This document shows, in pieces, positions 31,900-35,957 of a DNA stretch of 64,000 nucleotides. The notes below the pieces were generated by a model. That model made no database searches. It was not told the DNA's origin and was given only the letters and a program-made list of their open reading frames with translations. The stretch covers positions 43,764 to 107,763 of the forward strand of contig CABZLG010000001.1 in assembly GCA_902526535.1 (NCBI GenBank), given 5' to 3'. How positions within the stretch are numbered: position 1 is the first letter of the stretch; every line of letters begins with the position of its first letter. Source of the DNA: an uncultured SAR86 cluster bacterium. GTDB lineage: Bacteria; Pseudomonadota; Gammaproteobacteria; Magnimaribacterales; TMED112. Position numbers and translations under genes: made by a program.

Positions 31900-33148
31900 A
31901 GCATTTTTTCGAGGTTTTGTAATTGGTTTAATATTTTGGTCTCTTTCAATAAATTGGATCTTTGATGCAATAAATTTTTATGGTGCAGGATATTTTTTAA
32001 GTTTTTTTATTACCACCCTTTTAATTCTTTACTTATCTTTTTATTTTGGCTTTTTTACTCTTTCAGTAAGATTTTTTGAAGGGAATAAATTTTTTGTGCT
32101 ACTGGTACCATCTTTAATTTTCATTCTGGAATGGATTCGTTCATGGATGATATCAGGATTTCCATGGTTAAATATTGGGATTTTTTCAGTTCCTATTAAT
32201 TTCACAGGATATCTTCCTTTAATAGGTGTATCTGGAACATCATTTATTTTTGGCTTAATAATTGTCTTAGCCCTAAAGATCAGTGCTTTAAGAATTGGAA
32301 CTATATTTTTGTTATTACTAGTTGGTTTTTTAAGTCCAAATAAGAATTTATTTCTTGATGAAAGTTCTAAACGATTAAAAATTGCAGTTGTTCAACCAGT
32401 AGAAAATAACTACAAAATTTTAAACAACCTAACTTTGCAGGCAAAAAAAGATGGAGCTGAGGTAATAATATGGCCTGAGGCCGTAAGTAGCTATCAAAAT
32501 TTTCAAGTAAGAACGGAATTTGCGGATGTTGATATTATTGGTGGTTTCTTTGTTCAACAGGATGAAAGTATTTTTACCTCAATCGTAAATACTTCAACGG
32601 ATGATAGATATGATAAAAGAAACTTAGTACCTTTTGGAGAATTTCAGCCTTTCAATAATTTACTAAAAAACTTCAGTGAATTTTTTAATATCCCTAACTC
32701 ATCACTAACAAGAGGAGAAAAATCTCAAAAAAAGGTTTTTGTTCAACAAGTTCCCTTCTCTGGTTTAATTTGTTGGGAATTATCTTTCAATGATACTTTT
32801 GTTGATAGAACTCGGAATTCAGCATTTATCATTCATATAAGTAATGACAGCTGGTATGGAAAAAATATGCCAGCACAACATCTACTTCATGCAAAAGCAC
32901 GTGCAATTGAGTCTCAAAAATGGGTTGTTAGATCTACTACAGATGGTATTTCAGAGATTATTTCACCTTTTAATCAGAGAAAATTATCAAAAAACATTCC
33001 AAAAGGTATCAGGGGTTTTAAAACAGAAACTATCTCTACTAATATGAAAAATACAACATATCTAATTTTTGGAGATTATCCATTACTCATCTTCTCATTT
33101 ATTATTATCCTATTAGCTTTAATTGATAAAAAAAGAAATGAAAAATAA
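31892..33148 (+). CDS. lnt: Apolipoprotein N-acyltransferase, short form
   Basis: Inner-membrane enzyme adding the third acyl chain to lipoproteins. At 418 residues it is about 90 shorter than E. coli Lnt. It begins directly with FVIGLIFWSLSINWIFDAI, which matches a segment preceded by extra helices in E. coli, so the first membrane segment(s) appear to be missing. The nitrilase-like domain keeps the triad: Glu in IWPEAVSS, Lys in YDKRNLVPFGEF, and Cys in GLICWELSF. The start is TTG at 31892. The 3' end overlaps the transpeptidase gene by 11 bases. Confidence 0.93.
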   Translation: MIKAFFRGFVIGLIFWSLSINWIFDAINFYGAGYFLSFFITTLLILYLSFYFGFFTLSVRFFEGNKFFVLLVPSLIFILEWIRSWMISGFPWLNIGIFSVPINFTGYLPLIGVSGTSFIFGLIIVLALKISALRIGTIFLLLLVGFLSPNKNLFLDESSKRLKIAVVQPVENNYKILNNLTLQAKKDGAEVIIWPEAVSSYQNFQVRTEFADVDIIGGFFVQQDESIFTSIVNTSTDDRYDKRNLVPFGEFQPFNNLLKNFSEFFNIPNSSLTRGEKSQKKVFVQQVPFSGLICWELSFNDTFVDRTRNSAFIIHISNDSWYGKNMPAQHLLHAKARAIESQKWVVRSTTDGISEIISPFNQRKLSKNIPKGIRGFKTETISTNMKNTTYLIFGDYPLLIFSFIIILLALIDKKRNEK

Positions 33149-33668
33149 TATCTTGGTTTTATTAATCATGTCCTTCCTGATGAAATCAACAGAGATTGAA
33201 ATTTCTATTACCGAGCAAAAATTATTTTTGCTTAATAACAAATCCGTTGTAAAAACCTATTTAATATCTTCTTCAAAGTACGGAGAAGGATCAAAAGTTA
33301 ACTCGTTTAAAACACCACTTGGGAAACATATTATCAAAAGAAAAATTGGAAAGGACATTCCATTAGGGGCAAGATTTATTGGAAGGAGCTTTTCAGGTGA
33401 AATTTATCCTATATATGATTCTGATCCAGTACTTGTGGAAGATGATGTGGTTCAGTCAAGGATTCTTTGGCTTGATGGATTAGAGGATGGGATCAACAAA
33501 GGTGAGGGTGTAGATTCTTATAGCAGGTATATTTACATACATGGAACACCAGAGGAATGGCTATTAGGAGTAAAAGCTTCAAAAGGCTGCATAAGAATGT
33601 CAAATGAAGATGTTATTGAGTTATTTAACCTTGTAGAGGAGGGAATACCAGTAACAATTAATAAATAG
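33138..33668 (+). CDS. L,D-transpeptidase (YkuD domain)
   Basis: Exported cross-linking or lipoprotein-attaching enzyme of 176 residues. The signal-like N-terminus is NNILVLLIMSFLMKS. The YkuD catalytic motif is present: IYIHGTPEEWLLG, then KASKGCIRMSNEDVIEL with the nucleophile Cys near residue 150. The family-typical KTPLGKHIIKRKIG precedes it. ATG at 33138 is preferred over TTG at 33123. It ends the miaB operon. It may make 3-3 peptidoglycan links or tether a lipoprotein; the sequence cannot tell. Confidence 0.9.
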   Translation: MKNNILVLLIMSFLMKSTEIEISITEQKLFLLNNKSVVKTYLISSSKYGEGSKVNSFKTPLGKHIIKRKIGKDIPLGARFIGRSFSGEIYPIYDSDPVLVEDDVVQSRILWLDGLEDGINKGEGVDSYSRYIYIHGTPEEWLLGVKASKGCIRMSNEDVIELFNLVEEGIPVTINK

Positions 33669-33710
33669 CTATTATTTTATAAAATAAGCATCATTTATTT
33701 ATAATAAATA

Positions 33711-33738
33711 TTGATATTACATAATAAATATGTATTAT
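33711..33738 (+). promoter_or_regulatory. Promoter candidate for the structured RNA at 33745
   Basis: TTGATA at 33711-33716, a 16-base spacer, and TATTAT at 33733-33738, with a TG just before it. The predicted start is about 33744-33747, directly before the first hairpin. It is one of the few places in the window where both boxes of a sigma-70 promoter are visible. Confidence 0.55.
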
Positions 33739-33744
33739 ATTACT

Positions 33745-33806
33745 TAAGTCAGTCTCTCCTCTCCCCCAAAGACTGACAACTCGGGGCTTCGGCCCCAAAC
33801 TTTTTT
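33745..33806 (+). ncRNA. Candidate small RNA or structured leader with C-rich loop and terminator-like end
   Basis: Two hairpins in about 60 bases, unusually GC-rich for this window. Hairpin 1: GTCAGTCT (33748-33755) pairs perfectly with AGACTGAC (33770-33777) around a 14-base loop CTCCTCTCCCCCAA. The loop is complementary to purine-rich Shine-Dalgarno sequences. Hairpin 2: GGGGC (33783-33787), TTCG, GCCCC (33792-33796), followed by AAAC and six T (33801-33806). The U-run is four bases from the stem, so it is a non-ideal terminator. A promoter candidate precedes it. The ATG of a tiny membrane-peptide gene begins 5 bases after the T-run, so this may be an independent sRNA, an attenuated leader, or both. 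No known family is recognised. Confidence 0.6.
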
Positions 33807-33810
33807 GAGA

Positions 33811-33918
33811 ATGAAAGATTACTTCTACAACTTATTCACTTTTTGTAAAGATTACCCGGTCTGGACTGCAGCTTTTTTTTCAATTGGTTATTTAATCGGA
33901 GAGATTTACTTAGTCTAA
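33811..33918 (+). CDS. Tiny membrane protein 1 (35 residues), unknown
   Basis: ATG at 33811, TAA at 33916-33918. The peptide begins MKDYFYNLFTFCKDYPVW and continues with one hydrophobic helix (TAAFFSIGYLIGEIYLV). A GAG lies 1-3 bases from the ATG, so there is no convincing ribosome binding site. It starts 5 bases after the T-run of the preceding RNA hairpin. A second tiny membrane-peptide gene follows after a single base. Small size, single helix, a tandem partner and a structured leader recall type I toxin peptides or small respiratory/transport subunits, but no family is recognised and a chance frame cannot be excluded. Confidence 0.5.
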   Translation: MKDYFYNLFTFCKDYPVWTAAFFSIGYLIGEIYLV

Positions 33919-33919
33919 G

Positions 33920-34021
33920 ATGGAAAAGTATTTTAATAACATAATTAATAAGTTTTCAGACTCCATAGAGTTAGCTACTCTATGTCTAATTTTTGTAGTA
34001 TTAATTGTAGGCATTTCCTAG
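33920..34021 (+). CDS. Tiny membrane protein 2 (33 residues), unknown
   Basis: ATG at 33920, TAG at 34019-34021. The first half is amphipathic (MEKYFNNIINKFSDS); the second half is one hydrophobic helix (IELATLCLIFVVLIVGIS). The start is one base after the stop of the preceding tiny gene, suggesting coupling. GGAG at 33898-33901 is about 18 bases upstream, further than usual. Both peptides have an N-terminal aromatic/basic amphipathic stretch and one helix. The layout resembles a two-peptide membrane module. Function unknown. Confidence 0.5.
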   Translation: MEKYFNNIINKFSDSIELATLCLIFVVLIVGIS

Positions 34022-34052
34022 ATACTTCTGTATACTTTTTTCGGTGTGAAAT

Positions 34053-34592
34053 ATGAAAATTAAAATCATTGCAACAATTTTTTTATATCTTTTTTCAAGC
34101 AGTGTTCTTTCCGCATGTGAAGGTCTTCTAGATGAGGAAGTAAAAATTCTAAATGAAAAAAAATATCAAAATCTTTGTGAGTATTCTGGTAAAACTATTC
34201 TTGTAGTTAATACTGCGAGCAAATGTGGATTTACTTACCAATATGAAGAGCTTGAACAACTACAAAGACGTTTTAAAAAAGATAACTTCACTGTTTTAGG
34301 GTTCCCATCAAGAAATTTTCTTTATCAAGAATTCACCGATGAAGAAGAAGTTGCAGAATTTTGTAAGTCAACTTTTGATATTACATTTCCTCTTTTCTCA
34401 ATAACAAATGTAAACGCGGTAAATACACATCCTTTCTTTGAAAAGTTATTCGAAATTACACAAAAAAGACCTACTTGGAACTTTCATAAATTTTTAATTA
34501 CTAGTAAAGGAGAGGTGAAAAGTTTTTCTCATAGGATAAATCCTTCAGATCCGCAGATAGTTGAAGCAATTCAGCAATCTATAGACTCATAA
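34053..34592 (+). CDS. Periplasmic glutathione peroxidase-like protein
   Basis: Thioredoxin-fold peroxidase of 179 residues with a signal peptide ending in VLSAC (Cys22). That site could be a lipobox, or this cysteine could pair with Cys42 in NLCEYSG. The peroxidatic cysteine is in NTASKCGFTYQYEEL. The WNFHKFLI motif supplies the catalytic Trp and Asn. The usual GFPCNQF is GFPSRNF here, so the resolving cysteine and the catalytic glutamine are replaced, as in an exported GPx subfamily with GFPS. Reductant is therefore uncertain. TATACT (34031-34036) lies before the ATG. The 3' end overlaps convergent rpiA by 22 bases. Confidence 0.88.
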   Translation: MKIKIIATIFLYLFSSSVLSACEGLLDEEVKILNEKKYQNLCEYSGKTILVVNTASKCGFTYQYEELEQLQRRFKKDNFTVLGFPSRNFLYQEFTDEEEVAEFCKSTFDITFPLFSITNVNAVNTHPFFEKLFEITQKRPTWNFHKFLITSKGEVKSFSHRINPSDPQIVEAIQQSIDS

Positions 34593-35233: not shown

Positions 35234-35765
35234 AGATTTCTATTTCAGTAAAAATTTTATCTAATTTAACATCATGCTTTTCTTGAAAGTTTAGATTTGT
35301 TTTTTGCATTTCAAAACCTACTCCCCATAAAACAGGTCCTTTTCTTCCACTCTTAATATTAACAAAAGTTTTGTCATAGAACCCTTTACCTCTTCCAATC
35401 CTATAAAGTTTCTCATTGAAACCAACAAGTGGAACTAAAATGATATCTAATTCAAATATATTTACCTCTGTTTTAGATTTTGGTTCTAATATTCCATAAG
35501 TGCCAACTAAAACTCCTTTTGATATATTTCCATAGCCTAAAAATTTATCTTTTATAAAGGGGATATAAACTTTTTTATCTTTTGGTATTACAAGTTTGGG
35601 TTCAAATTTGATAGGCATAAACAAACCAATTTTCTTAGCTTTCTGAAACAGCTCTTGCTTATCTAGAAGTTTTTGAATTAGATGTGTTTTTTCAATTATT
35701 TCATATTGCGAAAATGAAAGGAGTTTATTTTGAATTTCTGATCTTATTTCATTTTTAACAGACAT
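35226..35765 (-). CDS. fau: 5-formyltetrahydrofolate cyclo-ligase (YgfA/Fau)
   Basis: ATP-dependent conversion of 5-formyl-THF to 5,10-methenyl-THF. The 179 residues have FMPIKFEPKLVIPK and the family signature VPLVGFNEKLYRIGRGKGFYDK near residue 115. Two starts are in frame. The ATG at 35774 would lie inside the 6S RNA, whose 3' end is at 35766, so the ATG at 35765, the first base after the RNA, is preferred. The 6S RNA-fau arrangement is the same as in E. coli (ssrS-ygfA). Confidence 0.93.
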   Translation of the reverse strand: MSVKNEIRSEIQNKLLSFSQYEIIEKTHLIQKLLDKQELFQKAKKIGLFMPIKFEPKLVIPKDKKVYIPFIKDKFLGYGNISKGVLVGTYGILEPKSKTEVNIFELDIILVPLVGFNEKLYRIGRGKGFYDKTFVNIKSGRKGPVLWGVGFEMQKTNLNFQEKHDVKLDKIFTEIEIYE

Positions 35766-35923
35766 CTGAATCATTGTTTCCAGTCACCCTGAACCCTTAG
35801 GTCAGGTGGGTAGCTCTTATTTATAGTAAGGCTTCCTCTAAAGTAACGCACAGCTATAAAAAATCTGCTTCCCTTAATTTACATTATCGGTTCTAGAGTA
35901 AATTCTGAAAAACTATGATTCAG
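35766..35923 (-). ncRNA. ssrS: 6S RNA
   Basis: RNA that binds RNA polymerase with sigma-70 and mimics an open promoter. On the minus strand the 5' end CTGAATCAT (35923-35915) pairs with the 3' end ATGATTCAG (35774-35766). Conserved blocks match E. coli 6S RNA in order: GAACCGATA (E. coli GAGCCGAUA), GAGGAAGCCTTA (GAGAAGCCUUA), and the 3' arm CACCTGACCTAAGGGTTCAGGG (positions 35805-35784) like CACCUUGAACCAAGGGUUCAAGGG. Position between zapA and fau is the usual gammaproteobacterial one. The length of about 158 nt is shorter than the 184 nt of E. coli. The ends are judged from the closing stem. Confidence 0.95.
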
Positions 35924-35957
35924 ACAATTAAATATTAAACATTTTTTGCAAATGTAT

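Follow-up and report, generated by a model that had tools for sequence, protein, structure and literature searches.

A window of 64,000 nt from the 771-kb draft genome of an uncultured member of SAR86, a widespread and abundant surface-ocean group with reduced genomes, carries an L,D-transpeptidase gene followed on the same strand by gpx, which encodes a glutathione peroxidase (Table 1). The 384-nt gap between these two open reading frames (ORFs) contains a promoter-like sequence, two RNA hairpins and two very short reading frames. gpx is the downstream gene of the same unit as the RNA and the peptides.

Table 1. Features of the L,D-transpeptidase to gpx region, in window coordinates
Feature	Position	Strand	Evidence or remark
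L,D-transpeptidase (YkuD) gene	33123..33668	+	Pfam PF03734, E 7.8e-21; upstream, context
Sigma-70-like promoter, TTGATA - 16 - TATTAT	33711..33738	+	Consensus scan
Hairpin 1: stem GTCAGTCT/AGACTGAC, loop CTCCTCTCCCCCAA (33756-33769)	33748..33777	+	Fold, covariation
Hairpin 2, UUCG loop (33783-33796), U-tract (33801-33806)	33783..33806	+	Terminator scan
Peptide 1, 35 aa, lineage-specific membrane peptide	33811..33918	+	ORF; intact in 6/20 genus loci
Peptide 2, 33 aa, conserved membrane peptide, core EL..L..IF..L..GIS	33920..34021	+	20/20 genus loci
gpx: glutathione peroxidase (GSHPx), N-terminal signal-like segment	34053..34592	+	Pfam PF00255, E 1.7e-28

The preliminary description of this DNA drew attention to the two short frames, and its account of their layout holds: each runs from an ATG to a stop codon, they lie one base apart, each encodes one hydrophobic stretch, and the start signals are weak, with GAGA directly before the first ATG; GGAGAG occurs ∼16 nt before the second, inside peptide 1. 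In AT-rich DNA a pair of such short ORFs is unremarkable alone, and the case for their being real rests on conservation. All 20 genus loci have peptide 2, with a pooled pN/pS of 0.07 from 20 within-cluster pairs that are not independent of one another (120 synonymous and 26 nonsynonymous differences). It is under strong purifying selection, and the suggestion of a small membrane protein is thereby supported for peptide 2, a real conserved gene. A similar membrane peptide of ∼28 aa is present in a sister family (f3), in the order RNA, peptide, gpx. Peptide 1 is intact in 6 of the 20 genus loci and absent in 12, with a pN/pS of 0.29-0.33 relative to its two nearest relatives. Upstream of peptide 2 in loci L009 and L013 there is what we read as a C-terminal remnant of peptide 1 (YLIGEV...) with no usable start codon, which suggests loss of peptide 1. 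Disruption by indels or stops, or a dN/dS near 1, had been named as grounds for dismissing both frames; peptide 2 shows none of these, and the picture for peptide 1 is mixed (intact, absent or, in two loci, a remnant). No peptide tested reaches the cut-off of any Pfam family.

The two small ORFs look ordinary; the RNA ahead of them is unusual and deeply conserved. The leader had rightly been called structured: positions 33748-33806 fold as two hairpins with a minimum free energy of -21.6 kcal/mol (z -3.06 against dinucleotide shuffles). It is also the best-conserved part of the locus, a point that was overlooked. The 16-mer GTCTCTCCTCTCCCCC is present exactly in 20 of the 21 genus genomes, the sole exception being a genome that is 60% complete (G018), and exactly in none of 40 other genomes searched, and the gpx protein adjoining the RNA in the genus genomes that carry it is only 61-94% identical to that of the window. 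The first 16 columns of the genus RNA alignment are nearly all invariant, stem 1 is paired in every cell, and the outer pairs of stem 2 covary. The loop is C-rich, exposed and conserved, and its stem is conserved too, a trait of C-rich-loop regulatory small RNAs (sRNAs), which form a functional class and not a homology family. Hairpin 2 and its U-tract were scored as an intrinsic terminator in the window, probably a leaky one; several genus members, G006 for instance, have a weak U-tract or lack one, so termination there may be inefficient or absent. A scan of the window with Rfam 15 returned no family at the gathering score, and below-threshold scans of eight loci and of window positions 33600-34100 showed nothing credible at the element. 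Elsewhere in the window (35759-35929, minus strand), a probable 6S RNA lies between a ZapA-like gene and a 5-formyltetrahydrofolate cyclo-ligase gene (39 bits, E 1.7e-6, below the Rfam gathering score of 46.4), and loci L009 and L005 have similar sub-threshold 6S RNA matches.

The conserved blocks of the 20-genome genus alignment are the -35 region, the -10 region and then the sequence onward from the first base of stem 1, and conservation is among the highest in the -35 region and the flank preceding it. Conservation resuming at the first base of stem 1 is the pattern expected if the transcript starts with hairpin 1. The L,D-transpeptidase gene and gpx are directly adjacent, without RNA or peptide, in five oriented loci of two further families (f2 and f4). 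The gene upstream of the RNA in the sister family is divergent in both loci read for it (with a Pfam assignment for one), leaving the RNA promoter as the only evident promoter for the peptide-gpx unit, so that read-through appears to drive the peptide and gpx there. The sister-family arrangement bears on the explanation that the leader is merely the terminator of the L,D-transpeptidase transcript and that the peptides are spurious ORFs or a type I toxin pair, the latter having been raised in the preliminary description. Hairpin 2 does score as an intrinsic terminator, and the peptides are small and hydrophobic, as type I toxins are. Against this, a terminator would not include hairpin 1 and its loop, and the promoter-RNA-peptide-gpx order persists in the sister family with no L,D-transpeptidase found upstream, for which reason a terminator of that gene alone was rejected. 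Peptide 2, present throughout the genus at low pN/pS, ordered with gpx and resembled by the sister-family peptide, leaves the toxin proposal unsupported. The conserved RNA lies upstream of the peptides on their own strand. We regard this explanation as largely refuted already and extremely improbable.

The RNA extends beyond the genus. The genus RNA model gives weak matches in the sister family (about 20-25 bits), ∼150-200 nt upstream of gpx, and each of the 20 stretches fetched there has two hairpins, the first of them C-rich, then a 28- to 33-residue membrane peptide and then gpx. Of the order's 203 genomes, 136 have matches to the sister-family model at E up to 0.01, often with two places in one genome; chance probably accounts for some of the weakest matches. 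Among 15 further sister-family places read, 13 are stand-alone copies without peptide or gpx, consisting of a promoter-like sequence, hairpin 1 and a terminator-like hairpin 2, followed by a convergent gene (encoding an exonuclease C-terminal domain in the one tested). The loop of hairpin 1 in these copies is much the same, and the stems differ by paired changes. The other two places are the RNA copy at gpx (L146) and a third RNA copy followed by a broken peptide frame, away from gpx (L140, G173:C10). A sixteenth place (L154) has no C-rich loop and was counted as a false match. Since stand-alone copies occur without a peptide, the leader is not merely a translation-controlling 5' UTR; it is real and structured, and in sister genomes it also occurs as a putative stand-alone RNA gene.

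A joint alignment of 49 RNAs has 94.7% of cells paired and 13 of 15 stem pairs changed on both sides, with 100 double-change cells (shuffles, 26; slid controls, no more than 13). The loop core is nearly fixed across these RNAs while the stem pairs covary, outer pairs of hairpin 2 included. This alignment was fitted to the model and so leans towards structure; covariation in an unfitted sister-family alignment was not above shuffles, and two rows with changed stems were seen to be misaligned in it. A gapped pattern with 20 fixed bases built from the element, searched in 84,980 genomes, returned 75 stretches, 69 of them in SAR86, gammaproteobacterial or proteobacterial assemblies, and six (L255, L256, L266, L271, L283 and L288) were judged to be chance matches. 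The RNA is followed by a membrane peptide and then gpx in 63 of the 75, the other 12 being two with a peptide and no gpx match, one stand-alone copy, three cut by the locus end and six due to chance. A class-wide search of 369 genomes with the joint model gave matches in 34 (E up to 0.003), three of the 34 belonging to this order. Matches outside the order were treated as chance because the 27 loci examined lacked polA and gpx, with engB close by in one. A single viral-contig match was also taken as chance, as it lies on a GC-rich contig without a second hairpin.

The frequency with which the RNA directly precedes the peptide-gpx unit would suit an element acting only in cis, that is, a 5' leader or attenuator setting peptide and glutathione peroxidase output, for example, if its loop bound the 5' arm of hairpin 2 or the region where the peptide starts. 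The loop can pair with this arm in two families (-8.0 and -8.8), and that of the window can pair with the GGAGAG before peptide 2 (-10.8 kcal/mol). However, the latter pairing falls to between -3.7 and -7.2 in the four further genus members checked, and such weak and variable pairing does not explain a nearly fixed loop. The stand-alone copies, which have neither peptide nor gpx, likewise speak against an exclusively cis role, and we consider it unlikely.

The best predicted partner of the loop is the mRNA of proteorhodopsin. In two genus genomes of 1.0 Mb each, 434 of 699 orthologue pairs have agreeing starts; among these 434, proteorhodopsin ranks first, with the best conserved loop pairing. 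The predicted site in the genus (TMED112-like SAR86) is the proteorhodopsin ribosome-binding site. Across 16 genus leaders the mean duplex energy is -14.4 kcal/mol, which is matched by 3 of 200 permuted loops. Affinity for the loop places nine leaders checked in the top 0.5-2.9% of genes, compared with the top 4-26% for affinity to the anti-Shine-Dalgarno sequence, and the sequence of the G-rich motif differs among the nine. Purine-rich ribosome-binding sites of strongly expressed genes could yield part of the genus signal. Sister-family leaders were examined next, this family not having been used in choosing proteorhodopsin. The motif GGGGGAG is present 39-46 nt before the start codon in 11 of 11 leaders fetched, and the mean duplex with the sister-family loop is -21.1 kcal/mol, with none of 200 permuted loops as good. 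Two leaders from a deeper genus of this family (g10) and those of f4 have other purine-rich sites with weaker or similar pairing, and two of the three f2 leaders read pair well and one does not, the percentile background in that comparison being a genus genome and not a sister-family genome. Several sister-family leaders (L460-L470) have a hairpin beginning at GGGGGAG, the complementary arms of which differ between species.

Genome-wide searches show no general enrichment of loop-complementary sites. There is no excess of 11-mers complementary to the loop in 21 genomes (66 non-self matches versus 106 for the reversed control), strong conserved duplexes in the two genus genomes are not above permuted loops (19 versus 21 ± 6 at -10 kcal/mol), and GGGGGAG is only mildly commoner than its reverse in 13 genomes (353 versus 300), with no genome-wide excess. 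The recurrent GTGGAGAGGAG match was rejected as a target: in all four loci read it falls within a coding frame, which is the same gene in three of them. Four of the 20 RNA-carrying genus genomes (G006, G011, G014 and G017) have no proteorhodopsin match, so proteorhodopsin cannot be the sole target. Stem covariation around a fixed loop would also suit a hairpin in which the C/U-rich loop is bound by a protein and not by an mRNA. That alternative does not predict the loop complement in proteorhodopsin leaders of two families, and we think it decidedly improbable. Proteorhodopsin stands as a specific, testable and unproven predicted target of the loop.

We consider it probable that the element represents an sRNA family that also serves as leader to the peptide-gpx operon, with a C-rich loop for which proteorhodopsin is the best predicted target. 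RNA conservation, covariation, promoter- and terminator-like signals, stand-alone copies, peptide coding and complementarity to proteorhodopsin leaders are all computed features. From these we infer short-RNA release, read-through, pairing in trans and the sign of regulation. The promoter would give rise to a short RNA starting at about position 33747, most transcripts being expected to end at hairpin 2 to yield an sRNA of ∼60 nt and the remainder reading through to provide the mRNA of the small membrane peptide (here two) and glutathione peroxidase. The exposed C/U-rich loop CUCCUCUCCCCC is predicted to pair with G-rich sites in mRNA 5' regions without Hfq or ProQ, the foremost of these sites being in proteorhodopsin mRNA, at the ribosome-binding site in the genus and at the GGGGGAG motif in the sister family. 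Hfq was found in none of 61 genomes and ProQ in none of 41, with controls working. More tentatively, SAR86 bacteria without detected Hfq or ProQ may control proteorhodopsin by an sRNA that is also the peptide-gpx leader, linking peroxide defence to light-driven proton pumping through a pairing kept across two target-site designs in two families; we hold this to be possible.

A conserved Hfq-free sRNA with a base-by-base predicted target in proteorhodopsin mRNA turns the question of how the pump is regulated into a test of two short sequences, and the locus adds a conserved membrane protein of ∼28 aa tied to glutathione peroxidase. Literature searches on SAR86 sRNAs, Hfq and proteorhodopsin regulation listed no paper describing this RNA, as judged by titles and the beginnings of abstracts. 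Shi et al. in 2009 reportedly defined groups of ocean small RNAs, and the SAR86 RNA could already be among these.

In genus g7 of family f4, all seven loci read have a hairpin of similar form (GUCAGCA stem, CUCUCCCC loop) in the gap between polA and engB. This second conserved hairpin RNA of the polA-engB gap was seen at L150-L153, L184-L189 and L219, and L190 has a different pyrimidine-rich hairpin in the gap. In the window only 20-30 nt separate polA from engB, with no such RNA between them, and assignment to the polA-locus sRNAs (Spot 42, ErsA and sX13) was rejected on location. The hairpin in g7 makes a relocated polA-locus RNA possible. ErsA and Spot 42 are not known to resemble the SAR86 RNA in sequence. 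The Helicobacter RNA HPnc5490, also compared below, was later named RepG.

ErsA and Spot 42 resemble the SAR86 RNA in that the polA locus is the site of the candidate copy in one SAR86 family (excerpts of PMC8575079 and PMC3771888), and Spot 42 requires Hfq (PMC3771888, excerpt). As described in the same partial text, sX13 of Xanthomonas has C-rich apical loops, is Hfq-independent and acts on G-rich targets near start codons; it is a 115-nt RNA with three C-rich hairpins, confined to Xanthomonadaceae and encoded just downstream of polA (PMC3771888). It shares with the SAR86 RNA the C-rich loop and, through the related-looking RNA of the other SAR86 family, a position by polA, whereas the SAR86 RNA has one C-rich hairpin and is mostly located elsewhere. 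HPnc5490 represses tlpB and has a UCCCCCU loop, a sequence also contained in the sister-family loop; unlike the SAR86 RNA, it has no operon role described in the excerpted source (PMC3771888). GsrN of Caulobacter binds the G-tract of the katG leader with the C-rich loop of its 5' hairpin and thereby activates katG; the loop is its most conserved part, and the RNA is linked to peroxide defence (PMC5869019, in excerpt). The SAR86 RNA is alike in features, not in shown sequence relation, having a nearly fixed C-rich 5' loop predicted to pair with a G-tract and being encoded with glutathione peroxidase. GsrN is alphaproteobacterial, belongs to the general stress response and, in the part of the source covered, is a separate gene, whereas the SAR86 RNA is also the leader of a peptide-gpx unit (PMC5869019).
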